Part shown: positions 7,551 through 36,760 of the stretch, one piece after another
Numbering within the stretch: position 1 is the first letter of the stretch
Layout of the letters: each line of letters begins with the position of its first letter
Assembly (NCBI RefSeq): GCF_014243445.1
Contig: NZ_JACLQD010000001.1
Span: forward strand, 1,054,001 to 1,118,000
DNA from: Paragemmobacter straminiformis
GTDB taxonomy: Bacteria > Pseudomonadota > Alphaproteobacteria > Rhodobacterales > Rhodobacteraceae
Length of the DNA: 64,000 nucleotides
Direction: 5' to 3'
Notes under the pieces: model-generated
Database searches by the model: none
Seen by the model: the letters and a program-made list of their open reading frames with translations, nothing else
Told to the model about the DNA's origin: nothing
Position numbers and translations under genes: made by a program

Positions 7551-8036
7551 ATGGCCGCAAGCGTTGGAATCATCATGGGGTCGCAGTCCGACTGGCCGAC
7601 CATGAAAGAAGCCGCCCTGATCCTCGACGCGCTCGGCATTCCGTACGAGGCGAAGATCGTCTCGGCCCACCGCACCCCTGACCGTCTGTGGACCTACGGC
7701 AAGACCGCCGCCGAACGCGGCTTGCAGGTCATCATCGCGGGCGCGGGTGGCGCAGCCCACCTGCCCGGCATGATGGCATCGAAGACCCGCATCCCCGTCA
7801 TCGGCGTGCCCGTGCAGACCAAGGCGCTCTCGGGGGTCGACAGCCTCTATTCCATCGTCCAGATGCCCAAGGGCTACCCCGTGGCCACGATGGCCATCGG
7901 CGCCGCAGGGGCGGCCAATGCGGGCCTTCTGGCCGCAGGCATCCTCGCGCTGCAAGACCCCGCCCTCGCCGCCCGTCTCGACGCATGGCGCGACGCCCTT
8001 TCCGCCTCCATCCCTGACGAGCCCAAAGATGACTGA
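7551..8036 (+). CDS. purE: N5-carboxyaminoimidazole ribonucleotide mutase
   Basis: A 161-residue class I PurE that converts N5-CAIR to CAIR in purine synthesis. GSQSDW near the N-terminus, SAHRTPDRL and [10 protein letters not shown] are the substrate-binding motifs of the octameric enzyme; the C-terminal [18 protein letters not shown] helix is also typical. It overlaps purK by 8 nt, so the mutase and the synthetase that makes its unstable substrate are translationally coupled. The ATG at 7551 is preceded by GGGGGCAGGC. Confidence 0.97.
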
Positions 8037-9096
8037 CATGCTTCCCGCCGGTTCCACCATCGGCATCCTCGGCGGCGGGCAACTGGGCCGGATGCTTTCG
8101 GTCGCGGCCTCGCGCCTCGGCTATCTGACGCATATCTTCGAACCGGCCGCCAACCCTCCGGCGGAACATGTCGCCCATCGCCTGACGACCGCCTTCTATG
8201 ACGACCTCGATGCGCTGGCCCGTTTCGCCGCCTCGGTCGATGTCATCACCTATGAATTCGAGAACATTCCCACCGCAGCACTTGATGTGCTGGAAAAGAC
8301 CCATCCCATCCGCCCCAACCGCCGCGCGCTGGCCATCAGCCAGGAACGGATCGCCGAGAAAGATTTCCTCACCGGCCTCGGGCTGACCACGGCACCCTAT
8401 GCCCGCGTGCAAACGCTGGCCGACCTGACAGCCGCAATCGACCGCATCGGCACCCCCGCCATCCTCAAGACCACGCGTCTGGGCTATGATGGCAAAGGTC
8501 AGGCCCGCATCATGTCGCGCGTCGATGCCGAAGCGGCGCATGCCGCGATGGGCGGGGCCGAAGCCGTGCTCGAAGGCTTCATCGACTTCACGCACGAGGT
8601 CAGCGTCATCGCCGCCCGCGGCCTCGACGGCTCGGTCGCCTGCTATGATCCGGGCGAGAACGTCCACAGGAACGGCATCCTCTCGACCACGACCATCCCC
8701 GCCCGCCTCAGCGCCTCGCAGCGCACCGACGCCATCCTGATCGCCGCCCGCATCCTGAACGCGCTCGATTACGTGGGGGTCATGGGGGTCGAGCTGTTCG
8801 TTACCCCCGCAGGGCTGATCGTCAACGAAATCGCCCCGCGCGTCCACAATTCGGGCCACTGGACGCAGAACGGCTGCGCGGTCGACCAGTTCGAACAGCA
8901 CATCCGCGCCGTGACGGGCTGGCCGCTGGGCGACGGGTCGCGCCATTCCGATGTGGTGATGGAAAACCTGATCGGCGACGACATCCTGCGCGTGCCCGCC
9001 ATCGCCCGCGAAAAGAACGCAGCCCTCCACCTCTACGGCAAGGCCGAGGCGCGGGCAGGCCGCAAGATGGGCCACGTCAACCGCGTGGTCGGCTAG
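8029..9096 (+). CDS. purK: 5-(carboxyamino)imidazole ribonucleotide synthase
   Basis: A 355-residue ATP-grasp enzyme that carboxylates AIR with bicarbonate and [15 protein letters not shown] near residue 10 is the N-terminal Rossmann motif. [17 protein letters not shown] (ATP-grasp lysine and Gly-rich loop), [13 protein letters not shown] and [14 protein letters not shown] (metal and substrate site) follow in order. The ATG at 8029 overlaps the purE stop (ATGACTGA). An imperfect GGCCTT/AAGGCC hairpin at 9104-9121 may end the operon. Confidence 0.97.
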
Positions 9097-9226
9097 GCCG
9101 CCGGGCCTTGCGGCAAAGGCCGCTCGCTGCCACCCGCGCCGAACCGGCGCAGGCCATCCCGACCGGCGCGCCCAGACCTGCGCGCCCCCACCGGCGCGCA
9201 CTAGCCTTGGCCGCCCTGCGCTTGCG

Positions 9227-9952
9227 TCAGTCCTTGCCCTCGATCAGCTCCTCGACCGCGCCGCCATAGCCCAGATCGGGGTCGAACCGTCCGCGCTCGA
9301 GAAAGGTCAGGACTTCGGCAATGACCAGCGGGTTGAACATCAGAAAGGTATGGGTGACCGGCAGCACGATATGGTCGGTCATCCCCGCCACCCGCGTGCT
9401 TTCCACGCTGACCTTGCCGTCATCCGGTCCGGGGATCACCTCGGAATAGACGGGGTTGAGCGAGCGGTCCCCCGCGATCACGCCAAGTTCGTAATCCGGC
9501 AGCGGCAATCCTGCGGGCACCGATGCCGGATCGGTCCCCAGTTCCATCCCCGCAGGCCCGTTGACCCAGGCAAACAGCCCGATCCCCGAAAAGGCATCCA
9601 CCAGTTCCGACCCGCCGTTGGGCGGGGCCAGCATCACCACCCGCCCCATCCGCTTCGGCCGGTTCCCGGCCAACCAGGCCCGCGCCAATATCCCGCCCAT
9701 CGAATGGGTGACGAAATCCACGCGGGCATCGCCGCAACGCGCCACGGCCTCTCCCACACGCGGCACCAGATCCTCGATCCGCGCCTCGGTCGAGGGATAG
9801 CCCTCGTTCACCACCGAATAGCCCTTTGCCTCAAGCGCCGCCTGCATCGCCAGAAGCGAATCCTCGCTGCGCGCCAGGCCGTGCAGCAGCACCACGCACT
9901 CGGCCCGCAGGGGTGTGGCAAGCATCAGGAACAGGAAAATCCAGCGCATCAT
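9227..9952 (-). CDS. Exported alpha/beta hydrolase, lipase-like
   Basis: A 241-residue protein with a short signal peptide ([17 protein letters not shown]). [10 protein letters not shown] gives the oxyanion-loop HG motif and [15 protein letters not shown] the nucleophile elbow (Ser in HSMGG). A late His in [10 protein letters not shown] is a plausible catalytic base. It resembles secreted esterases/lipases related to the PGAP1/Lip families. Substrate is unknown. It is convergent with purK and divergent from the NUDIX gene 63 bp away. Confidence 0.8.
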
Positions 9953-10015
9953 GCGCCAACCCTAGCCCCTTCGCAGCCAATGGACAAATCACGCCCCCTC
10001 GCGCACCTTCACGGC

Positions 10016-10462
10016 ATGAGCTATCGCCCCACCCGCCTTGCCACCCGCGCGCTGATCCTGCATCAGGACCGTCTTTTGCTGGTCAACGCCTATGGCGGCA
10101 CCAAGTCCGACCTCTGGTGCGCCCCCGGCGGCGGCGTGAACCCCGGCACCTCGCTGCCCGAAAACCTGATGCGCGAGGTGTATGAGGAAACAGGCCTCAC
10201 CATCGCCGTCGGCGCTCCGGTGCTGGTCAACGAATTCCACGACCCCGCGCGCGGCTTCCATCAGGTGGAAATCTTCTTCCGCTGCACCATCACCGGCGGC
10301 GCGATCGACCAGGGCTGGCAAGACCCCGAAGGCGTCGTCACCCGCCGCGCCTTCTTTTCCCGTCATGATCTGGCGACGATCCGCGTCAAGCCCGACAGCA
10401 TCGCGCAGGCTGCATGGGATGATGCCATGCTTTACGACCCGCTCGAACGGATCGTGCCATGA
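10016..10462 (+). CDS. NUDIX hydrolase with an atypical Nudix box
   Basis: A 148-residue Nudix-fold protein. The Nudix box region reads GGGVNPGTSLPENLMREVYE and continues ETGL. The REVYEETGL half with its metal-binding Glu residues is intact, but the upstream conserved Glu (G-x5-E-x7-REU) is replaced by Thr. These enzymes cleave nucleoside diphosphate derivatives; the substrate cannot be inferred. Start ATG at 10016 (MSYRPTRLATRALIL) begins just before the first beta strand; an ATG at 9980 is possible. The stop overlaps the next gene by ATGA. Confidence 0.85.
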   Translation: MSYRPTRLATRALILHQDRLLLVNAYGGTKSDLWCAPGGGVNPGTSLPENLMREVYEETGLTIAVGAPVLVNEFHDPARGFHQVEIFFRCTITGGAIDQGWQDPEGVVTRRAFFSRHDLATIRVKPDSIAQAAWDDAMLYDPLERIVP

Positions 10463-10950
10463 GCCGCGCCTTCGTCAAAGAGGGCGACGGCGCGCTCGAC
10501 CCGCTGCCCGACCTGCCCGTCTCGGCCCACCCGAACCACGTCACGCCTGCGGGCCTTGCCGCTTTGCAAGCCCGCCTGCACGAGGCACAGTCGCGGCTCT
10601 CCGCCCTCAAGGCTCGCCCCGACCGGCTCGACAAACTGCCCGAAGCGGCGGCGGAACGCGACATCCGCTACATCGAAGCCCGCCTGCGCACCGCCATCCT
10701 GACCGATCCTGCAGGCTTTCCCCTGACCGAGGTTGCCTTCGGCCTTGTCGTCACCGTCGCCGACGCCGATGGGCATGAAACCCGCTTCCAGATCACGGGC
10801 GAGGACGAGGCCAACGCCGCCTTGGGCCGGATCACCCCGCAATCCCCCCTCGCCCGCGCGCTGCTGGGCGCGGCGGTCGGCGATGTGGTGAAATGGAAGA
10901 AACCTTCGGGTATCGTCGAGCTGGAAATCCTGTCGATAGACCATCCATGA
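10459..10950 (+). CDS. GreA/GreB family transcription factor-like protein
   Basis: A 163-residue protein. An N-terminal helical hairpin (VTPAGLAALQARLHEAQSRL) is followed by a C-terminal FKBP-like Gre domain (TEVAFGLVVTVADADGHE, TPQSPLARALLGAAVGDVV). In canonical GreA the coiled-coil tip carries the acidic GDLSENAEY segment that enters the RNA polymerase secondary channel. Here that region reads RLDKLPEAAAERDIRYIEAR, shorter and without SENAEY, so cleavage stimulation is uncertain. It is coupled by ATGA overlaps to both the NUDIX and the GNAT gene. Confidence 0.82.
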   Translation: MSRAFVKEGDGALDPLPDLPVSAHPNHVTPAGLAALQARLHEAQSRLSALKARPDRLDKLPEAAAERDIRYIEARLRTAILTDPAGFPLTEVAFGLVVTVADADGHETRFQITGEDEANAALGRITPQSPLARALLGAAVGDVVKWKKPSGIVELEILSIDHP

Positions 10951-11423
10951 TCCGCGACCTGCACCCCGAATCCGACCTTGCCGCCGTGGCCGCCTTCCTT
11001 GACGAGTCCGCCGATTACTGGCTTCTGGCCGATGGTCATGCCCCCGGCCCGACCGCCGCCGCCGAATTCTTCACCGATTGCCCGCCGAACTGCGACCCCG
11101 CCGCCTCGCGCCGCCTCGGGCTTTTCGTAGGCGGGCGGCTGTCCGGACTTGCCGAACTCGCCTTCGGCTTTCCAGTGGCGGGCGACGCCTTTCTCGGCCT
11201 GATGATCCTCGCCCCGCGCATGCGCGGCCAGGGGCAGGGCCAAAGGCTGCTGGCCCATGTCGAATCCCTTGCCCGCGCCGCAAAGGCGCCCGCCCTCTAC
11301 CTTGGCGTGATCGAAGCAAATCCCCGTGGCCGCGCCTTTTGGGACCGCCACGGCTTTCGCCCGACCGGAGTCACCCGCACCGACGCGCGCAACACCTTCC
11401 ACCGCCTCGTCAAGGCACTCTAG
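10947..11423 (+). CDS. GNAT family N-acetyltransferase
   Basis: A 158-residue GCN5-related acetyltransferase. The acetyl-CoA loop is LAPRMRGQGQGQRLL (R/Q-x-x-G-x-G/A), followed by the family's late strand ALYLGVIEANPRGRAFWDRHGF. Substrate is unknown; the tail NTFHRLVKAL is typical of small-molecule acetyltransferases. It is the third gene of the NUDIX/Gre-like/GNAT unit, joined by an ATGA overlap, and faces the EamA transporter with a 9-bp gap. Confidence 0.88.
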   Translation: MIRDLHPESDLAAVAAFLDESADYWLLADGHAPGPTAAAEFFTDCPPNCDPAASRRLGLFVGGRLSGLAELAFGFPVAGDAFLGLMILAPRMRGQGQGQRLLAHVESLARAAKAPALYLGVIEANPRGRAFWDRHGFRPTGVTRTDARNTFHRLVKAL

Positions 11424-11432
11424 CGGCTTGCC

Positions 11433-12323
11433 TCAGCCCCGGCTGACCGTCGCCCAAAGCACACCCCCCAGCGCCACGGGAAAGCCGATCAGGTGATAAA
11501 AGGCGATCTTCTCGCCAAGAAACACCACAGCCAGCCCCGCGCCAAAGACCGGCATCAGATGCAGGAAGAACACCGACCGCGAAGGCCCGATCCGCGCCAC
11601 CGCCGCGTTGTAACTCAGCAAGGCGACGACCGAGGCGAAAACCCCCGTATAGGCCACCGCACCCAGCCCCGCCGCCGTCAGCGGCACATGCAGGCCCCGC
11701 GACACCTCCCACAGGTGAAAGGGCAGCATGAACCCCGCCCCGCCCAGCGCGATGAAAAAGGTCAGCCCCACCGCCGACAACCCCTTGGGCCTGAACTTCA
11801 GCAGCACCGAATACAGGCCCCAGACCACCAGCGCCGCCAGAATCCACGCATCCCCCACATTGAAATGCAGGTCCAGCAGCCGCGCCGGTTCACCCCGCGC
11901 GATGATAAAGGCGACGCCGCAGAAACTGACCCCGATCCCCGCCGCCTGCCGCAGGCCCAGCCGCTCGCGCAGCACGATCCAGGCGATGATGACCACAAAG
12001 ACGGGCATGGTGGCCGACACGAGCAGCGCGTTGATCGCTTCGGTCGAATGCAGCCCGATATAGGTCATCGACTGGAACATCCCCGCCGACAGCACCGCCA
12101 TCGCCGCGACCAGCGGCAGATGCGCCCGCACCTCGGCCCAGTCGGCCCGCAGCCGCCGCCATTCAAAGGGCAGCAGGATCACCGCCGCCAGCGCCCAGCG
12201 CCAGAAGGTCAGGCCAAAGGGCGGCACATCGGCACGTATCGCGCGCCCCAGCACCCAGTTGCCCGCCCAACACAGCGAAGCAAGGGCCGCAAGCCCCGCA
12301 GCAATGGCAAAATTCTTGTTCAT
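11433..12323 (-). CDS. EamA family (DMT superfamily) transporter
   Basis: A 296-residue inner membrane protein with about ten hydrophobic segments in two EamA repeats. The first repeat contains WAGNWVLGRAIRADVPPFGL, typical of the family; the second begins near WILAALVVWGLYSVLL. Such proteins export metabolites or amino acids; the substrate cannot be told. ATG at 12323 is preferred over an in-frame TTG two codons upstream. Upstream lies an inverted-repeat pair and the 83-bp array behind groL, so expression from groESL read-through would have to pass the groL terminator. Confidence 0.88.
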   Translation of the reverse strand: MNKNFAIAAGLAALASLCWAGNWVLGRAIRADVPPFGLTFWRWALAAVILLPFEWRRLRADWAEVRAHLPLVAAMAVLSAGMFQSMTYIGLHSTEAINALLVSATMPVFVVIIAWIVLRERLGLRQAAGIGVSFCGVAFIIARGEPARLLDLHFNVGDAWILAALVVWGLYSVLLKFRPKGLSAVGLTFFIALGGAGFMLPFHLWEVSRGLHVPLTAAGLGAVAYTGVFASVVALLSYNAAVARIGPSRSVFFLHLMPVFGAGLAVVFLGEKIAFYHLIGFPVALGGVLWATVSRG

Positions 12324-12369
12324 GGCCAAAGGCTAAGCCGCCCCGACCCAAAGGGCAATCCGCCAACCC

Positions 12370-12416
12370 CGCGATTTCTGACGCAGAAATCGCGCCGGAA
12401 TTTGGCGCAAATTCCG
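12370..12416. repeat. Pair of perfect hairpins with 3-nt loops between eamA and the array
   Basis: Hairpin one: CGCGATTTCTG, loop ACG, CAGAAATCGCG (12370-12394, 11 bp). Hairpin two: CGGAATTTG, loop GCG, CAAATTCCG (12396-12416, 9 bp). They have the same design as the two hairpins in each 83-bp unit that starts 20 bp away and look like a diverged relative. Confidence 0.8.
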
Positions 12417-12435
12417 CGCGCCCGACACTTGCCCC

Positions 12436-12914
12436 CGATTTTTGTGTCAAAAATCGTCGCGATATCTGCGTCAGATTTCGCCGCGCGGCCCAAAAGAAAC
12501 GCGCCCGACCCTCGCCTCCGATTTTTGCGCCAAAAATCGTCGCGAAATCTGCATCAGATTTCGCCGCCCGGCCCAAAAGAAACGCGCCCGACCCTCGCCC
12601 ACGATTTTTGCGTCAAAATTCGTCGCGATATCTGCGTCAGATTTCGCCGCCCGGCCCAAAAGAAACGCGCCCGACCCTCGCCTCCGATTTTTGCGTCAAA
12701 ATTCGTCGCGATATCTGCGTCAGATTTCGCCGCCCGGCCCAAAAGAAACGCGCCCGACCCTCGCCTCCGATTTTTGCGCCAAAGATCGTCGCGATATCTG
12801 CGTCAGATTTCGCCGCCCGGCCCAAAAGAAACGCGCCCGACCCTCGCCCCCGATTTTTGCGTCAAAAATCGTCGCGAAATCTGCGTCAGATTTCGCCGCC
12901 CGGCCCAAAAGAAA
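12436..12914. repeat. Tandem array of six 83-bp units, each with two 3-nt-loop hairpins
   Basis: Units begin at 12436, 12519, 12602, 12685, 12768 and 12851, an exact 83-bp period; the last unit is cut after about 64 bp where the groL terminator begins. Units 3 and 4 are identical as read; others differ by a few substitutions. Each unit holds hairpin A (CGATTTTTG, 3-nt loop, CAAAAATCG) and hairpin B (GA[A/T]ATCTG, CGT, CAGATTTC), then a GC-rich spacer with GGCCCAAAAGAAACGCGCCC. Because 83 is not a multiple of 3, the frame shifts at every unit, so it is not a protein repeat. It lies between groL and eamA. Confidence 0.97.
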
Positions 12915-12940
12915 AAGGGGCGCAGCTTTCGCCACGCCCC
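12911..12940 (-). terminator. groESL operon terminator
   Basis: On the minus strand GGGGCGTGGC, tetraloop GAAA, GCTGCGCCCC, then TTTTTC. It forms ten base pairs, two of them G-U, closed by a GNRA loop. It lies 27 nt after the groL stop and directly abuts the 83-bp array. Confidence 0.88.
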
Positions 12941-12966
12941 CCGTTTCTGCCGGATGGCAGGGATGA

Positions 12967-14646
<1,680 letters not shown>

Positions 14647-14682
14647 TCACGGGTGCGCCGCAGGGGCACACCGCAAGCGTCC

Positions 14683-14970
14683 TCAGGCGATGATGCCGAG
14701 GATGTCGCTTTCTTTCATGATCAGCAGTTCCTGACCGTCGAGCGTCACTTCGGTGCCCGACCATTTGCCGAACAGGATGCGGTCGCCAGCTTTCACCGAC
14801 GGTGCGATCAGCTCGCCCGAATCCTTGCGCGCGCCTGCACCGACAGCGACGATCTCGCCCTCGGCGGGCTTTTCTTTCGCGGTGTCGGGGATGATCAGAC
14901 CGCCCTTGGTCTTGTCTTCGCCTTGAATGCGCTTGACGAGCACGCGGTCATGCAGCGGTTTGAATGCCAT
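14683..14970 (-). CDS. groS: Co-chaperonin GroES
   Basis: A 95-residue heptameric lid of the GroEL chamber. [20 protein letters not shown] and the mobile-loop region [15 protein letters not shown] are diagnostic; the C-terminal [20 protein letters not shown] is also standard. ATG at 14970 has AGGGAG upstream; an in-frame ATG at 15012 lies inside the CIRCE element and is rejected. It is the first gene of the groESL operon. Confidence 0.98.
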
Positions 14971-15005
14971 CTGAGAACACTCCCTAGGTTCCAGGTTGAA
15001 TACGA

Positions 15006-15032
15006 TTAGCACTCATATTGGACGAGTGCTAA
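15006..15032. promoter_or_regulatory. CIRCE operator (HrcA binding site) of groESL
   Basis: TTAGCACTC, 9-nt spacer ATATTGGAC, GAGTGCTAA: a perfect match to the CIRCE inverted repeat. It sits just downstream of the predicted transcription start and about 36 nt before the groS start, where the HrcA repressor would block transcription or act in the leader. Confidence 0.97.
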
Positions 15033-15041
15033 CGACGCCTC

Positions 15042-15069
15042 AGATAGGCCCGCCCGCCGCCCGTGTCAA
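15042..15069 (-). promoter_or_regulatory. groESL promoter
   Basis: On the minus strand TTGACA (15064-15069), 16-nt GC-rich spacer, CTATCT (15042-15047). Read as CTTGACA...CCTATCT it also resembles the RpoH promoters of Rhodobacter, so both housekeeping and heat-shock sigma factors may use it. Confidence 0.75.
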
Positions 15070-15167
15070 GAACTCGGCCGCCGCTAAAGTTGCGCGCGGG
15101 TGCCGCCGCGCCCCTTGGCAGCCCGCCCCCGCGATGCCACCTTTGCCCTGCCCCCAAGGATATGCCG

Positions 15168-16163
15168 ATGAACCCGCTGAAACGCCTCGCCCTGCTGGCC
15201 CTGTGCCTTCCCGCCGCCGCTCAGGCCGAATGTCGGGGTGCCAATCTGTTCACCGCGCTGCCGCCTGCGGAACAGGCGGAAATCCGCGCCGCGACCGATG
15301 CCGCCCCCTTCGCGCGCGGCCTGCTCTGGCAAGCGACACGCGGGGACGAATCGATCACCCTGCTCGGCACCTACCATTTCGACGACCCGCGCCATGATGC
15401 CATCATGGCCCGCGTCACCCCGCTGCTCGACGCCGCCACGACCCTGCTGGTCGAGGCAGGCCCCGCCGAGGAAGCCGCCCTCAAATCCGACCTTGCAAAG
15501 AACCCCGCCCTGATGGTCTCGACCAACGGGCCGACCCTGCCCGAATCCCTTCCCGCCAAGGAATGGGAGGCGCTTTCCGCCGCGATGAATGCCCGCGGCA
15601 TGCCCGCCTTCATGGCCGCCAAGCTGCGCCCCTGGTATGTGACGATGCTGCTCGCCCTGCCGCCCTGCGCTATGGCCGATCAGGCAGCACTTGCCTCAGG
15701 CGGTCTCGACCAGCGGCTGATCCGCCACGCCACGGACCGCGCCCTTCCCGTCGCGGCACTCGAACCGCATGACACGGTCTTGCGCATGTTCGACACCATG
15801 CCACCCGCCGACCAGCTGGCGATGATCCGCTCCGCCCTCGCAACCGAGGCGCAGGCCGAGGATTACTCCGCCACCCTTGCCACAGCCTATTTCGACGAGG
15901 ACGCCCGCCTGATCTGGGAACTCAGCCGCCACTTGGCGCTGAAGCTGCCGGACTACGGCCCCGAACAGGTCGCCCGCGACTTCGACGCGATGGAAACCGC
16001 GCTGATGACCTCGCGCAACCGCGCATGGAGTCCCGTCCTGCAAGCCGCCGGCGCCAAGGGCCCCGTCTTCGCCGCCTTCGGCGCGCTGCACCTGTCGGGG
16101 GAAAACGGCGTGCTGGCGCTGTTGCAGGCCGATGGCTGGAAGATCGAACGCCTGCCGCTCTGA
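15168..16163 (+). CDS. Exported TraB/GumN family protein
   Basis: A 331-residue protein with a signal peptide (MNPLKRLALLALCLPAAAQA, then E). The mature part has the TraB/GumN hallmarks: ITLLGTYHFDDPRH, LLVEAGPAE, and the late PVFAAFGALHLSGENGVLAL (GxLHL-x-G). The fold is related to Tiki/PrgY proteins, proposed metalloproteases; activity here is unproven. The ATG at 15168 is preferred because AAGGA lies 7 nt upstream, while an ATG two codons earlier is too close to it. Hairpins follow the gene. Confidence 0.85.
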   Translation: MNPLKRLALLALCLPAAAQAECRGANLFTALPPAEQAEIRAATDAAPFARGLLWQATRGDESITLLGTYHFDDPRHDAIMARVTPLLDAATTLLVEAGPAEEAALKSDLAKNPALMVSTNGPTLPESLPAKEWEALSAAMNARGMPAFMAAKLRPWYVTMLLALPPCAMADQAALASGGLDQRLIRHATDRALPVAALEPHDTVLRMFDTMPPADQLAMIRSALATEAQAEDYSATLATAYFDEDARLIWELSRHLALKLPDYGPEQVARDFDAMETALMTSRNRAWSPVLQAAGAKGPVFAAFGALHLSGENGVLALLQADGWKIERLPL

Positions 16164-30897: not shown

Positions 30898-33216
30898 GTG
30901 CCGTCATTTTCGACCACACTCGAGCAGGCCATCCACGGCGCACTCGCTTTGGCGAATGCACGCCGCCATGAACTCGCAACGCTGGAGCATCTGCTTCTGG
31001 CGCTGATCGACGAACCCGATGCAGCCCGCGTGATGAAGGCCTGCTCGGTCAACCTCGACGATCTCAGGAAAACCCTGATCGAATTCATCGACGACGACCT
31101 CTCCACCCTCGTCACCGATGTCGAAGGGTCCGAGGCCGTGCCGACCGCAGCCTTCCAGCGCGTGATCCAGCGCGCCGCGATCCACGTCCAGTCCTCGGGC
31201 CGGACCGAGGTGACGGGGGCCAATGTCCTCGTGGCCATCTTCGCCGAACGCGAATCCAACGCCGCCTATTTCCTGCAAGAGCAGGACATGACGCGCTATG
31301 ATGCGGTGAACTTCATCGCCCACGGCGTCGCCAAAGACCCGTCCTACGGCGAATCCCGCCCCGTCTCCGGTGCCGAAGAACATCAGGAAACACCGAAAGC
31401 CGAAGCCGGCGAGGCGAAGGAATCCGCCCTGTCGAAATACTGCGTCGACCTCAACGTCAAAGCCCGCAAGGGCGATGTCGACCCCCTGATCGGCCGCGAT
31501 GCCGAAGTCGAGCGCGCGATTCAAGTCCTGTGCCGCCGCCGCAAGAACAACCCGCTTCTGGTGGGCGATCCGGGCGTGGGCAAAACCGCCATCGCCGAAG
31601 GTCTGGCGTGGAAGATCGTCAAGAAAGAGGTTCCCGAAGTTCTGGCCCATGCCACGATCTTCAGCCTCGACATGGGCGCGCTTCTGGCCGGCACCCGCTA
31701 CCGTGGCGATTTCGAAGAGCGTCTGAAAGCCGTCGTCAAAGAGATGGAGGATCACCCCGACGCGATCCTGTTCATCGACGAAATCCACACCGTCATCGGT
31801 GCGGGCGCCACTTCGGGCGGGGCGATGGATGCCTCGAACCTTCTCAAGCCCGCGCTTCAGGGCGGCAAACTGCGCTGCATGGGTTCGACCACCTACAAGG
31901 AATTCCGCCAGCACTTCGAAAAAGACCGCGCCCTCTCGCGCCGCTTCCAGAAGATCGACGTGAACGAACCTTCGGTCCCCGATGCCATCAAGATCCTGAT
32001 GGGCCTCAAACCGCATTTCGAGGAACATCACGACCTGCGCTACACCTCCGACGCCATCAAATCGGCGGTGGAACTTGCCGCGCGCTACATCCACGACCGC
32101 AAACTGCCCGACAGCGCGATCGACGTGATCGACGAGGCGGGCGCCGCCCAGCACCTTCTGCCCGAAGGCAAGAAGCGCAAAACCCTTGGCACCAAGGAAA
32201 TCGAGGCTGTCGTGGCGAAAATCGCCCGCATCCCCCCGAAGAACGTGTCCAAGGACGATGCCGAAACCCTGCGCGATCTGGAAAAAACCCTCAAACGCGT
32301 CGTGTTCGGTCAGGACAAGGCGGTTGAAGCACTCTGCTCGGCGATCAAACTCGCCCGCGCCGGCCTGCGCGAGCCTGAAAAGCCCATCGGCAACTACCTC
32401 TTTGCCGGTCCGACAGGCGTCGGCAAGACCGAAGTCGCCAAACAGCTTGCAAGCTCGCTCGGCGTGGAACTGCTGCGCTTCGACATGTCGGAATACATGG
32501 AGAAGCACGCCGTTTCCCGCCTCATCGGCGCGCCTCCGGGCTATGTCGGCTTCGATCAGGGCGGCATGCTCACCGATGGCGTCGACCAGCACCCCCATTG
32601 CGTCCTGCTCTTGGACGAAATGGAAAAGGCGCACCCCGATGTCTACAACATCCTGCTTCAGGTCATGGACCACGGCAAACTGACCGACCACAACGGTCGC
32701 ACGGTCGATTTCCGCAACGTGATCCTGATCATGACATCGAACGCCGGCGCGCAGGAAATGTCGAAATCGGCCATCGGCTTCGGGCGCGAGCGGCGCACGG
32801 GCGAAGACACCGCCGCCATCGAGCGGACCTTCACCCCCGAATTCCGCAACCGTCTGGATGCGGTGATCTCCTTCGCCCCGCTTGGCAAGGAAGTGATCCT
32901 GCAAGTCGTCGAGAAGTTCGTCCTGCAACTCGAAGCGCAGCTCATGGACCGTGGCGTTCACATCGAACTCACCCCCGAAGCCGCCGCTTGGCTGGGCGAC
33001 AAGGGCTATGATGACAAGATGGGCGCCCGCCCGCTTGGCCGCGTGATCCAGGAACACATCAAGAAGCCGCTGGCCGAAGAACTGTTGTTCGGCAAGCTGG
33101 TCAAGGGTGGCGTGGTCAAGGTCGCGGTCAAGGATGACGGCATCGTGCTGAACATCGAAGAACCGGCCAAGCCGCGCCTGACAGGCTCGAAGCCGCCGCT
33201 GCTGACCGCCGAGTAA
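30898..33216 (+). CDS. clpA: ATP-dependent Clp protease ATP-binding subunit ClpA
   Basis: A 772-residue AAA+ unfoldase that feeds substrates to ClpP. The N-terminal Clp_N repeats span about 1-145, including the [16 protein letters not shown] segment. Walker A of ring 1 is GDPGVGKT (223-230), of ring 2 GPTGVGKT (504-511); the IGF loop that docks ClpP is at 626-628. Start is GTG at 30898 with AGGAG upstream. No clpS precedes it here. A strong terminator follows. Confidence 0.98.
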
Positions 33217-33238: not shown

Positions 33239-33272
33239 AAAGGCCCCTGCCGCAAGGCGGGGGCCTTTTTCT
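33239..33272 (+). terminator. Terminator of clpA
   Basis: AAAGGCCCCTGCC, loop GCAA, GGCGGGGGCCTTT, then further T residues; 13 base pairs including one G-U. Confidence 0.93.
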
Positions 33273-33342: not shown

Positions 33343-34914
33343 TTAACGCTCGGTCAATTTCAACTCGATCCGACGGTTCTGCGCGCGGCTCGCCTCGTCG
33401 TCGCCCGCCGCTACGGGGCGGTATTCCCCGAACCCCGTCGCGGCCATCCGCTCGGGCGGGAAACCAAGGGCCGTCTGCATGTAGCGAACCACCGAAAGCG
33501 CCCGCGCCTGCGACAGCTCCCAATTGTCCTTGAACAGCCCCGTTCCCAGCAGCGGGATATTGTCGGTATGGCCGTCCACGCGGATGATCCAGTCAATCTC
33601 GGGCGGGATATCTCCCTTGATTTCATTCAATATTTTCACCACTCCGGCAATCTGCGCCTGCCCTTCCGGGGCCAGATCGGCCGCCCCCGGTTTGAACAGG
33701 ACCTCGCTGGAAAACACGAAGCGGTCACCCACCACGCGCACCCCTTCGCGCCCGTCCAGCAGCGACGACAGCTTGCCAAAGAATTCCGACCGGTATCGCG
33801 CCAGATCGGCGTTTTCCGCCTGCAAACGCAGCTTTTCCGCCTCTTCCAGTTCGGCCCTTTTCCGCTGCTCGGACGCCACCTGCGCCAAGGCCGCGTTCAA
33901 CTGCGACCCAAGGTTTTCAAGCTGCACCTTGGCCTTGGCATCCTTGTCCGCCGCCTCGTTCAGCACCGCCTGAAGGCTGGCCAACTGCCCACGAAGCGAG
34001 GCGATCTGCTCATTCAGCAGCGCCATTTTCCGCTGCGCTTCCAAGGACTTGGCCTGTTCCTCGCTCAGGGCTTGCTTCGCCGCCTCAAGCGCCGCGTCCT
34101 TGCCGGTCAACCCCTCGGCCCGCTTCGCCGCCTCGGATTTGGCAGCCGCCAAAAGGGTCAGCGTATCCTCGGCGCGCTGCCGCTCTTCTTCCAATGCAAG
34201 CGTCATCGCGGTGATCTCGTCATCGGATGATTTCAGCTTGTTTCGCAATTCTTCCAAGGCCTTGGCATCCACCAGCCGTGCCGCCTCGGCATCGCCCAGC
34301 TTGGCGGTGGCTTCGGTCGATTGCCGCCGCAACGTCTCGACCAGCGCGGCCATCGCCTCGCGCCGCGCCGCCGCAAGCCGCGCCTCTTCCGCCTGCTTGT
34401 CGATCTCGGACCGCGCCTTGGCCAGCGCCAGTTGCGCGGCCTCTTGCTCGGTCAGCAGTTTTTGTTGTGCGGTTTCAAGCTCTTGGACAGTGCCTGTCAG
34501 CTTGTTCTTTTCCGCCAGAAGCGATGCGACCTGCGCTTCAAAGCTGACGATCTTGCCTTGCGCGGTCGCCAAATCTCCCTGCGCCGTCGCCAACTGCCCC
34601 GAAAGCGAGGCGATCAGCGACGCCTGTTTCTCTCCCTCGGCCTTTGCCGCCGCAAGCGAGGCGTCCAGTTCCCCCACCTGCGCCGTCAGCTCGGCAGCCT
34701 TCTTCTTTTCCAGCCCCAAGGCATCGGCCAATTGCGCGATCTGGTCGGTCAGGCTGTCCAACTCGTTCGACTGCGCCGTGATCGTGTCGCGCAGCACCAC
34801 CTGCATCACGGTAAAGATGGTCAGAATGAACATCATGACCATCAAAAGCGTGGTCACGGCGTCCACAAAGCCGGGCCAGATCATCGCAGTATCTCGGCGC
34901 GACCGAAGGCCCAT
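33343..34914 (-). CDS. MotB/OmpA-like peptidoglycan-binding protein with long coiled coil
   Basis: A 523-residue protein. A single transmembrane helix, IWPGFVDAVTTLLMVMMFIL, spans about residues 12-40; Asp18 stands where MotB, ExbD and TolR have the ion-binding Asp. Residues ~45-380 are an almost uninterrupted Ala/Glu/Lys/Gln-rich coiled coil. Residues ~390-523 are an OmpA C-terminal domain (VDGHTDNIPL, NWELSQARALSVVRYM, ASRAQNRRIELKL). It follows its probable partner, the MotA-like gene, by 3 nt. Likely a stator-type protein linking an inner membrane ion channel to peptidoglycan; the driven process is unknown. Confidence 0.88.
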   Translation of the reverse strand: MGLRSRRDTAMIWPGFVDAVTTLLMVMMFILTIFTVMQVVLRDTITAQSNELDSLTDQIAQLADALGLEKKKAAELTAQVGELDASLAAAKAEGEKQASLIASLSGQLATAQGDLATAQGKIVSFEAQVASLLAEKNKLTGTVQELETAQQKLLTEQEAAQLALAKARSEIDKQAEEARLAAARREAMAALVETLRRQSTEATAKLGDAEAARLVDAKALEELRNKLKSSDDEITAMTLALEEERQRAEDTLTLLAAAKSEAAKRAEGLTGKDAALEAAKQALSEEQAKSLEAQRKMALLNEQIASLRGQLASLQAVLNEAADKDAKAKVQLENLGSQLNAALAQVASEQRKRAELEEAEKLRLQAENADLARYRSEFFGKLSSLLDGREGVRVVGDRFVFSSEVLFKPGAADLAPEGQAQIAGVVKILNEIKGDIPPEIDWIIRVDGHTDNIPLLGTGLFKDNWELSQARALSVVRYMQTALGFPPERMAATGFGEYRPVAAGDDEASRAQNRRIELKLTER

Positions 34915-34917
34915 GAT

Positions 34918-36087
34918 CTACCCCCGCCCGACCGTGCCACGCGACAGCGTGCGGATCGCGGCCGTCAACGCAGCGATGTCGCCGCGCAGATCGGCCGTGC
35001 TTTCCTGACGTCCGGCCGAAATTTCTTCAAGTATCCTAAGCAGTTGCACGTCGATCGACCGCAGGCGCATCCGGCTTTCGGCATCCGAATGCGCGCCTCC
35101 CTCGGCCCCCGTCAGTGCCGCGACCAGCCGGTCCTGCCCTTCGGCGATCCGGTTCAGGGCCGCCGCCTGTCCGGTTTCGGCCTCCATCCGCTCGGCCAGC
35201 TTGGTGATGGCGCGGGCAAGATCGTCGATCTTGTCTTCGACCATGACACGCGTGATATCGGATTGGGTATAAAGGGATTGCAGCGCATCCATCTGCGCCG
35301 CCATCTGGTCGACCACAGCCGCCATCGCATTGCTGTCGCCGCCTTCGCCATCAGAAGCAAGGCTCACGCGGGTGATCGACGACAGCCACTCTTCCAACTC
35401 GCGGTAGAAGCGGTTCTGCCCGTGTCCGGCAAAAAGTTCGAGCAACCCCACAACCAAAGATCCGGCAAGGCCCAGCAAGGACGAGGAAAACGCCGTCCCC
35501 ATCCCGCCCAACTGGTTCTCGAGGCCCCCCATCAACTTCGTGAAAACCTGTATGCCCGTTTCACCCTCTTGCGGGGCAAGCGAGCGAATGGTTTCGACCA
35601 CCGCCGGAACCGTGGTGGCAAGGCCGTAGAATGTGCCGAGAAGCCCCAGAAAAATCAGCAGGTTGGTCAGATAGCGGGTGATATCCCGCGCCTCGTCGAT
35701 GCGGGTGGCGACCGATTCAAGGATGGACCGCGACGAGGAATTCGAGATCTGCATCTTTTTCCCGCGCGATCGCAAAAGCGAGGCGAGCGGCGCCAGCAAA
35801 CGCGGCGGGCGGGTGTTTTCGTGCCCCGGAATATGGCGCACGAAATCCTCGATCCAGCTGACCGACTGCATCAGGATGAACACCTGCCAGAAGCAGGTCA
35901 GCACCCCGAGGAAAAAGACGCCCGCAATGAAACCGTTCAGCAACGGGTTTGTCTGGAAAATGCCCGCCACCTGCGCATGGATCACCCAGGCACCCGTGGC
36001 GACCAGCACGACAACGACCAGCATGAACACCAGTTGCCGGATCGGCTGGCTGAAGGTGGTGGCCGGCTCGGCCCGGAACTTGTCCAT
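34918..36087 (-). CDS. MotA/TolQ/ExbB family proton channel protein with long cytoplasmic tail
   Basis: A 389-residue membrane protein. Predicted membrane helices lie near 17-42, 50-74, 140-165 and 195-220. The conserved channel segments read NLLIFLGLLGTFYGLATTVP and GMGTAFSSSLLGLAGSLVVG, the TolQ/ExbB helices that surround the partner's Asp-bearing helix. Residues ~221-389 form a charged helical cytoplasmic tail rich in Asp/Glu/Arg. The start MDKFRAEP at 36087 is chosen because longer in-frame starts add basic non-homologous sequence. It forms a two-gene unit with the MotB/OmpA-like gene. Confidence 0.9.
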   Translation of the reverse strand: MDKFRAEPATTFSQPIRQLVFMLVVVVLVATGAWVIHAQVAGIFQTNPLLNGFIAGVFFLGVLTCFWQVFILMQSVSWIEDFVRHIPGHENTRPPRLLAPLASLLRSRGKKMQISNSSSRSILESVATRIDEARDITRYLTNLLIFLGLLGTFYGLATTVPAVVETIRSLAPQEGETGIQVFTKLMGGLENQLGGMGTAFSSSLLGLAGSLVVGLLELFAGHGQNRFYRELEEWLSSITRVSLASDGEGGDSNAMAAVVDQMAAQMDALQSLYTQSDITRVMVEDKIDDLARAITKLAERMEAETGQAAALNRIAEGQDRLVAALTGAEGGAHSDAESRMRLRSIDVQLLRILEEISAGRQESTADLRGDIAALTAAIRTLSRGTVGRG

Positions 36088-36160
36088 CAGGTCACATCCA
36101 CAAGGTTCTGCTGCGCGATCACCATAACAGCCCGACGCCCCATGCCAAGGGGAAGCCCGT

Positions 36161-36697
36161 TCACGAACACAGTTGCCGGACCCTTGCGGCCAACCAGTCG
36201 AGGTCGGCATCGGCGATGCCAAGTGCTGCAAGATGTTCCGCGGTCGAATAGAGGTAGTCGCGGTTCGGCCCACGTCCGCCTGTCGCATGGGCAATGATTT
36301 CGGCCTGCTCCTCGAGCGGCAGGCCACCGCAATACTGTTCATGCACGGGGTCGATGACATAGGCCAGCGCCGTGACCTGACGGCCATCCGACAGGGTCAC
36401 ATCAAGCCATTCCTCGATATATGCGGAAGATATGAGCTCTCTTTCCCGCAATGCCGCCAGCGTTTCGTCTTCGGCGCCTTCCGCCACGCGAAAGGCGACG
36501 CCGTCGCAATGCACGCCCGTGGCCCTGTCCAGCGCCAGCACCAGACCCGGCGCTTCGACCGAGCCGCGATGGTGGATCGAGCGCATGCAGAAACTGCGGT
36601 GCCAGCCCGCCAGCCGCGCCACATGGCGTTCGGCCACGGGAAATTCCGGATGCCAGATCAGCGACCCATAGCCGAAGACCCAAAGCGCAGCTTTCAT
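36161..36697 (-). CDS. Gamma-glutamylcyclotransferase, ChaC family
   Basis: A 178-residue enzyme that degrades glutathione to 5-oxoproline and Cys-Gly. WVFGYGSLIWHPEF is the Y-G-S-L substrate loop; RSIHHRGSVEAPGLVLALD and the catalytic-Glu region AFRVAEGAEDETLAALREREL are ChaC-type. The C-terminus carries YLYSTAEHLAALGI. ATG at 36697. It is divergent from the DUF2125 gene by 63 bp. Confidence 0.92.
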   Translation of the reverse strand: MKAALWVFGYGSLIWHPEFPVAERHVARLAGWHRSFCMRSIHHRGSVEAPGLVLALDRATGVHCDGVAFRVAEGAEDETLAALRERELISSAYIEEWLDVTLSDGRQVTALAYVIDPVHEQYCGGLPLEEQAEIIAHATGGRGPNRDYLYSTAEHLAALGIADADLDWLAARVRQLCS

Positions 36698-36760
36698 TGA
36701 CTGGCCCTCATGTTGCCGCACCTGTAGACAACAGGGCGTTGAACTTGGAAAGGGCGTCCG

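Follow-up and report, generated by a model that had tools for sequence, protein, structure and literature searches.

In a 64,000-nucleotide stretch of the genome of Paragemmobacter straminiformis (Alphaproteobacteria, order Rhodobacterales; contig NZ_JACLQD010000001.1, positions 1,054,001 to 1,118,000; hereafter the window, with coordinates counted from its first letter), we analysed two adjoining genes that encode a channel protein of the MotA/TolQ/ExbB type (A) and a peptidoglycan-binding anchor protein (B). We propose, at a probability of roughly 0.62, that A and B form a housekeeping, ion-driven, non-flagellar motor of five A and two B, which would be a sister to the ZorAB motor of the Zorya defence system and would act on the envelope. 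The direct basis is gene order, conservation, distribution, profile ranking, and the periodicity and register of the coiled coil of B. The housekeeping-motor idea of the initial annotation is the one we favour, with a closer Zorya kinship than it had supposed, while motor action and function are put forward by analogy with related systems.

A channel protein and a long-armed wall anchor

Both open reading frames (ORFs) lie on the minus strand where they were expected, with three bases between the stop codon of A and the ATG of B. The features of the pair are:

34918..36087, minus strand: gene A, MotA/TolQ/ExbB-type channel protein, 389 residues (ORF; ZorA profile PDLC00597, E 6.3e-13)
33343..34914, minus strand: gene B, wall anchor, 523 residues (NF006542 PRK09039 'peptidoglycan-binding protein', 723.5 bits against a cut-off of 388)
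34861..34863, minus strand: Asp18 codon of B (WPGFVD), presumed ion-carrying residue (motif conservation in B proteins)
33799..34785, minus strand: coiled coil of B, residues 44-372 (heptad power; AlphaFold helices)
33373..33699, minus strand: OmpA-type peptidoglycan-binding domain of B, residues 406-514 (PF00691, E 6.5e-16)
34921..35424, minus strand: cytoplasmic tail of A, about residues 222-389, with the ESRMRLRSIDVQLLRILEE block, residues 337-355 (invariant residues in Rhodobacterales rows)

B has the WPGFVD motif that holds Asp18, one transmembrane (TM) helix, a 329-residue coil and the OmpA domain. Judged by its sequence it is an equivalog of PRK09039.1-1 (NF006542), one of a set of families (NF006542-NF006546) that carries a database name and no function; five B proteins of other groups match the same set, four of them above a cut-off. 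The motif reads WPGFVD or WPGYVD in 94 of 95 B proteins and WPAFVD in one, in a search by regular expression that itself demanded the Asp and is no independent test of that residue, and a further alignment, of 23 rows, shows no variation at W13-D18, D451 or R471; the last two we take to be the equivalents of the wall-binding D271 and R286 of OmpA. The coil (residues 44-372) has no proline, and its heptad power of 3.42 at period 3.5 was reached by none of 5000 shuffles (mean 0.17, maximum 1.47), with I, L, M, V or F at 53% of the a and d positions against 9% elsewhere. An AlphaFold monomer (mean predicted local distance difference test, pLDDT, 70.1) places helices at 14-205, 215-264 and 273-386, and the low-confidence breaks between them may be hinges or points of fold-back.

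A reaches no cut-off in Pfam or NCBIfam: it scores 9.7 bits (E 0.93) with MotA_ExbB PF01618, below the gathering cut-off of 22.9 bits, and 20.7 bits with the NCBIfam ZorA model NF033917, whose cut-off is 500. PF01618 is matched at E<=1 by 22 of 25 relatives (best E 7.4e-6), and the best named relative among the top 80 matches is from Rhodobacter amnigenus (79%). TM helices are predicted at about 14-35, 48-72, 143-165 and 195-220, with cytoplasmic helices between the second and third, followed by a tail of about 165 residues that is predicted to be helical and cytoplasmic. T152, in an LGLLGTF motif, and S203 are invariant in 25/25 rows (24 relatives at 35-66% identity) and align with the ion-path Thr/Ser columns of TolQ, ExbB and ZorA, an equivalence for which we assume the roles of these residues in Escherichia coli. 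With the conserved Asp of B, this putative Thr/Ser ring matches the sequence pattern of 5:2 ion-driven motors. In the tail, E337, R341-R343, D346 and E354 are invariant in 38 Rhodobacterales rows; the block around them is nearly fixed in the order, can be made out in part in some other groups, and is absent from short-tailed members. Locus L161 encodes a divergent A of 563 residues (7945-9633) with a longer tail, beside which B was not recognised.

A single-chain AlphaFold model of A from a 38-row alignment (mean pLDDT 73.0, predicted template modelling score 0.53) is wholly helical (14-35, 48-83, 96-108, 116-169, 178-244, and a segmented tail from 251). Its core (about residues 36-253, the matched stretches lying within about 13-256) superposes on TolQ/ExbB at Z up to 11.8 (TolQ), on ZorA at 10.1 and on MotA at 9.9, values that lend a helical model weak support because unrelated helical bundles reach Z 8-10 (VIA listing). 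The alignment with MotA starts at residue 13 and those with TolQ, ExbB and ZorA at 35-45, which suggests a MotA-like four-helix layout with one N-terminal TM helix more than in TolQ, ExbB or ZorA. A sequence search of the PDB with A returned no relative, only chance coiled-coil matches. Of the stator parts listed in the initial annotation, both ORFs, the Asp18 helix of B and the OmpA anchor are present, whereas the TolQ/ExbB-like channel gives way to the MotA-like layout and a score under the PF01618 cut-off. The long coil (given there as about 335 residues) and the long tail (about 170), which it called unusual, are normal for the order.

Probable kinship with the Zorya motor

Among characterised families, type III ZorAB (PADLOC ZorA3/ZorB3) is the best profile match to the pair. 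An hhalign profile of 30 family members, with L161 left out, matched ZorA III at 98.1% (E 9e-14), a group that we call f28/f47 at 98.1%, ZorA I at 94.3%, TolQ at 62.6%, ExbB at 42.1%, MotA at 12.8% and PomA at 7.4%, the comparison groups being small and uneven. This ranking leaves the pair outside MotAB, TolQR and ExbBD, and brings it nearer to ZorA/ZorB than had been proposed. The f28/f47 proteins (L151-L157) are channel proteins of 330-380 residues from outside the class, as close to A as ZorA III by hhalign; a simple motif search of their surrounding stretches found no OmpA-type partner.

The best PADLOC match of B is ZorB III (E 1.2e-20), with much of the score coming from the shared OmpA domain. 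The pair and Zorya have in common a GxxxAFxxS motif in the last TM helix of the channel, a cytoplasmic tail on A, and a peptidoglycan-binding partner that starts with W-x-x-F-x-D, as seen in the ZorB III beside ZorA III. They differ in the predicted extra N-terminal TM helix of A (the ZorA alignments begin at residues 35-44 of the model), in the tail (about 165 residues against several hundred in ZorA), in the coil, which is far longer in B than in ZorB, and in that the pair is core, not mobile, and has no partner genes.

A tree was built from 76 rows of 108 columns (L150 and L162 were omitted after misalignment). In it the A family forms one clade (90/93) beside ZorA III (95/85), and the remaining ZorA branch next to these (95/95); TolQ/ExbB lie apart, as does a separate MotA clade (99/97). 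In this phylogenetic check, of the kind suggested by the initial annotation, approximately unbiased (AU) tests reject no alternative (p 0.27-0.29), so that the placement beside ZorA III is likely and not firm.

The ZorA profile PDLC00597 matches 168 of 398 genomes of the phylum, many of the matches being A's own family, and none of 14 control genomes, while PF01618 matches 8 of these 14. ZorA-profile matches in G198, G221, G145, G172 and other genomes fall in frames of more than 1200 residues, far longer than known ZorA. A search of viral sequences with a ZorA protein gave no match, nor did a scan of E. coli with that gene.

A core pair in the order

Of 101 genomes sampled from the order, 100 match NF006542 above the cut-off, and the sole genome without B, G006, also lacks A across its whole length. 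At the usual site of the pair, downstream of clpA, G006 carries phage-tail-like ORFs (L316, about 9016-15277). The flagellar protein FlhA went unmatched in 11 of the 101 genomes, all 11 of which have B, and G006, which lacks the pair, has two FlhA matches.

Among 299 genomes of the phylum, 84 have a match to profile A1, built on A; 14 of them come from the same family, another 45 from the same class and 25 from elsewhere. The last comprise five members of the A family (at least 322 bits), ten long ORFs (690-1117 residues, 38-62 bits) and ten distant short relatives (18-36 bits). Members of the A family total 64, and no TolQ, ExbB or MotA was matched by this profile at E<=0.001 in the 299 genomes. 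Among A's matches outside the class, eight long ORFs were compared with PADLOC and seven are ZorA III; the other, in L150 (6625-8640), is a 672-residue coiled-coil ORF with a weak A match, to which PADLOC gives no clear ZorA identity, the best of its weak matches being JetC and others. Of 72,556 plasmid records, three match, all of 3.5-4.6 Mb and non-mobilizable. The record CP090106.1 (L295; 3.7 Mb, labelled pSymB of Sinorhizobium meliloti) carries housekeeping genes, among them rpmE, purE and gap, and has the look of a chromosome under the wrong label. In sum, A and B are core genes of the order that also occur widely in the rest of the Alphaproteobacteria and hardly ever on plasmids.

How the motor would work

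A and B belong by their sequences to the MotA/TolQ/ExbB-MotB superfamily, and most likely assemble in the inner membrane with two B at the centre of five A. We hypothesise that ions passing between Asp18 of B and the ring that T152 and S203 form in A would turn A relative to B, with the OmpA domain of B gripping peptidoglycan at the end of the long coiled-coil arm. The moving part would be A together with the helical tail that it has in the cytoplasm. In MotAB and ZorAB, too, A turns while B holds the wall, and by analogy the most likely output here is the turning of A and tail. Since the pair is core and chromosomal and has no nuclease or helicase partners, unlike Zorya, it probably performs constant envelope work, for example wall-membrane coordination in growth or division.

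The initial proposal agrees with the data in that the pair resembles a full ion motor, its channel and wall-binding residues being conserved, and in that it is distributed as housekeeping genes are. The word 'new' needs qualification, given that B falls in the catalogued family PRK09039, already named and without an attached function, and that a similar pair has been published. In non-flagellated Komagataeibacter hansenii, two papers describe an adjoining 'motA' (348 residues, four TM helices) and 'motB' (321 residues, OmpA-like), whose overexpression gave longer cells and chains and whose GFP fusions were polar (PMC6570709, PMC6315621). Their resemblance to A and B is one of published description and serves as a lead, not as evidence of membership. 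A 2025 stator survey leaves ZorAB out of its phylogeny (PMC12505986), and the accessible portion of a Zorya paper holds no mention of the A/B family that we could find (PMC11890865). The open-access literature, as far as its texts were available, yielded no paper on the pair in Rhodobacterales and none linking it to Zorya.

Arm length varies while register is kept

We measured coil length as the number of residues that separate the Asp of B from GDRF, a motif in its OmpA part. The measurement covered 80 named Rhodobacterales loci, which were picked by similarity and are hence close relatives, some cut by contig ends, and 24 loci from other orders or groups. The motif expression found no B in 8 of the 80 and 2 of the 24. 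The distance is 297-1008 residues in the remaining 72 Rhodobacterales loci and 191-440 in the 22 others, an about fivefold range for the periplasmic coil. Taken modulo 7 it falls in classes 6, 2 and 3 in 61/72 and 20/22 loci, respectively, and these classes are whole heptads or the 3/4-residue a-d step. Shared ancestry was controlled for with 47 independent pairs on a 94-row tree, 40 of which differ in length: the difference is 0, 3 or 4 modulo 7 in 29 of the 40 (expected 17, p = 1.4e-4), a class named after the length distribution had been seen, though coiled-coil geometry predicts it, and a whole number of heptads in 11 (p = 0.02).

If straight at 0.15 nm per residue, the coil of the window would measure about 49 nm and the longest about 140 nm. 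The periplasm is 20-30 nm wide, so a coil of this length has to run along the envelope or be folded. A wider idea, tentative and more probably wrong than right, is that the core envelope motor of Alphaproteobacteria shares stock with Zorya, with Zorya III having branched off a housekeeping machine to serve in phage defence, or else the core pair being a Zorya that was domesticated, and that its wall-anchored arm is free in length (about 20-140 nm extended, in many members beyond the width of the periplasm) and held in rotational register, so that it would lie along or fold in the envelope, transmit twist and set no distance.

Genomic surroundings

Around the pair, the window holds the following features:

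36121..36148, minus strand: lone promoter-like match upstream of A, weak, with 0.7 expected by chance
36161..36751, minus strand: ChaC-like neighbour, a glutathione enzyme of the gamma-glutamylcyclotransferase type (PF04752, E 1.7e-43)
30898..33216, plus strand: clpA neighbour, convergent with gene B (TIGR02639)
33239-33268: strong terminator-like hairpin of 13 pairs, 3' of clpA, in the gap where clpA and gene B converge

The neighbours had been named correctly as clpA and a glutathione enzyme. In the 80 named Rhodobacterales loci A is always adjoined by B, downstream of it, and ChaC is found in 75 and clpA in 54. All 24 of the outside loci contain A and 22 contain B, whereas homologues of clpA, ChaC, DUF2125, the extensin-like protein, PDH and HisC occur in none (tblastn, E<=1e-8); the common neighbours there are inositol monophosphatase (15/24), elongation factor P (11/24) and often an ABC transporter. 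ChaC beside the pair is conserved in this order only, and a functional operon with clpA or ChaC was rejected because the linkage is limited in this way. In genome G022 the clpA-side stretch lacks A and B, yet both genes lie elsewhere in the genome. S. meliloti carries the pair under the annotation 'MotA/TolQ/ExbB proton channel family protein' and 'peptidoglycan-binding protein'.

In 6 of the 24 loci that lie outside the order, the gene directly upstream of A encodes some 400 residues, and its product is possibly a third component (L270, 5846-7078; L272, 8269-9567; L273, 6116-7255; L274, 6017-7450; L275 and L287, incomplete); the L270 protein, the sole one scanned, has a C-terminal OmpA-like stretch.

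The absence of Zorya partners, part of the initial annotation, holds: none of the eight flanking proteins matches a Zorya or other defence model of PADLOC at E<=0.001, and none of ZorC/ZorD, ZorE or the type III partners is among the identified neighbours of the zorAB-like pair. A defence island was rejected, there being no defence gene among these eight proteins and no scatter across plasmids.

Weighing the explanations

Several results weigh against a housekeeping motor that is sister to ZorAB. The tree has 108 columns and long branches, and the AU test rejects neither a single ZorA clade (p 0.287) nor a grouping of the A family with TolQ/ExbB (p 0.273). The top Foldseek match of the A model is TolQ (E 2.5e-3) and not ZorA, with none at E<=0.001, and both models are single-chain and of middling quality (pLDDT 73.0 and 70.1). 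The pair is also missing from at least 19 genomes of the same class in the 299-genome sample, so that the class can live without it.

The alternative that survives best, which we nevertheless hold to be unlikely, is an energiser like TolQR or ExbBD, in which A would be fixed and the long arm of B would pass force to a partner in the outer membrane. The Foldseek ranking, the AU result for TolQ/ExbB, a coil that could span the periplasm, and the extra protein upstream of A in 6/24 outside loci, OmpA-like in the one scanned, all speak for it. Yet B has a peptidoglycan-binding domain of its own and no TolR/ExbD-type end, profile similarity to TolQ is low, and a separate TolQ is encoded elsewhere in the same genome. 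TolQR and ExbBD share the membrane core fold with the A model; TolQ and ExbB have three TM helices, and TolR and ExbD are not known to have a wall-binding domain of this type.

We also consider doubtful, and slightly more so, that A and B are a vertically kept anti-phage or surveillance device, a ZorAB-type sensor of wall damage with cytoplasmic effectors encoded elsewhere. Its nearest characterised relatives being ZorA III (by profile) and ZorB III, and a tail on A that is ZorA-like in position, are what such a device would share with Zorya, but a core distribution (100/101 order genomes), eight flanking proteins devoid of defence genes, conserved housekeeping surroundings and the near lack of plasmid copies argue otherwise. 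Very improbable is a mainly structural or sensing tether from inner membrane to wall, with ion flow minor or lost: a coil free in length (191-1008 residues from Asp to GDRF) with its register kept is what a tether would predict, whereas the invariant ion-path Asp, Thr and Ser would be needless in one. A second flagellar stator or flagellum-linked accessory motor is scarcely credible and was rejected on distribution and profile distance, for although MotAB/PomAB share with the pair a four-TM layout (A aligning with MotA from residue 13), an OmpA-type, MotB-like B and a helix of B that carries an Asp, the profiles furthest from A are those of MotA and PomA, and the pair occurs independently of flagellar genes, B being kept in the 11/11 order genomes without FlhA and absent from G006 with its two FlhA matches. 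A pair that is core to the order, independent of flagella and devoid of defence partners suggests a role in envelope upkeep, and it is the housekeeping motor related to ZorAB that we retain.

Implications

Matches to ZorA and ZorB profiles in Alphaproteobacteria can be this core pair and not a defence system, and call for caution when defence genes are annotated. If the favoured explanation is true, a large bacterial class would possess a third constitutive ion motor, beside the Tol and flagellar stators, that is kept without flagella. Zorya would gain a housekeeping relative and hence a testable origin story, and the natural series of arm lengths in B would allow one to ask how wall-anchored motors pass torque.

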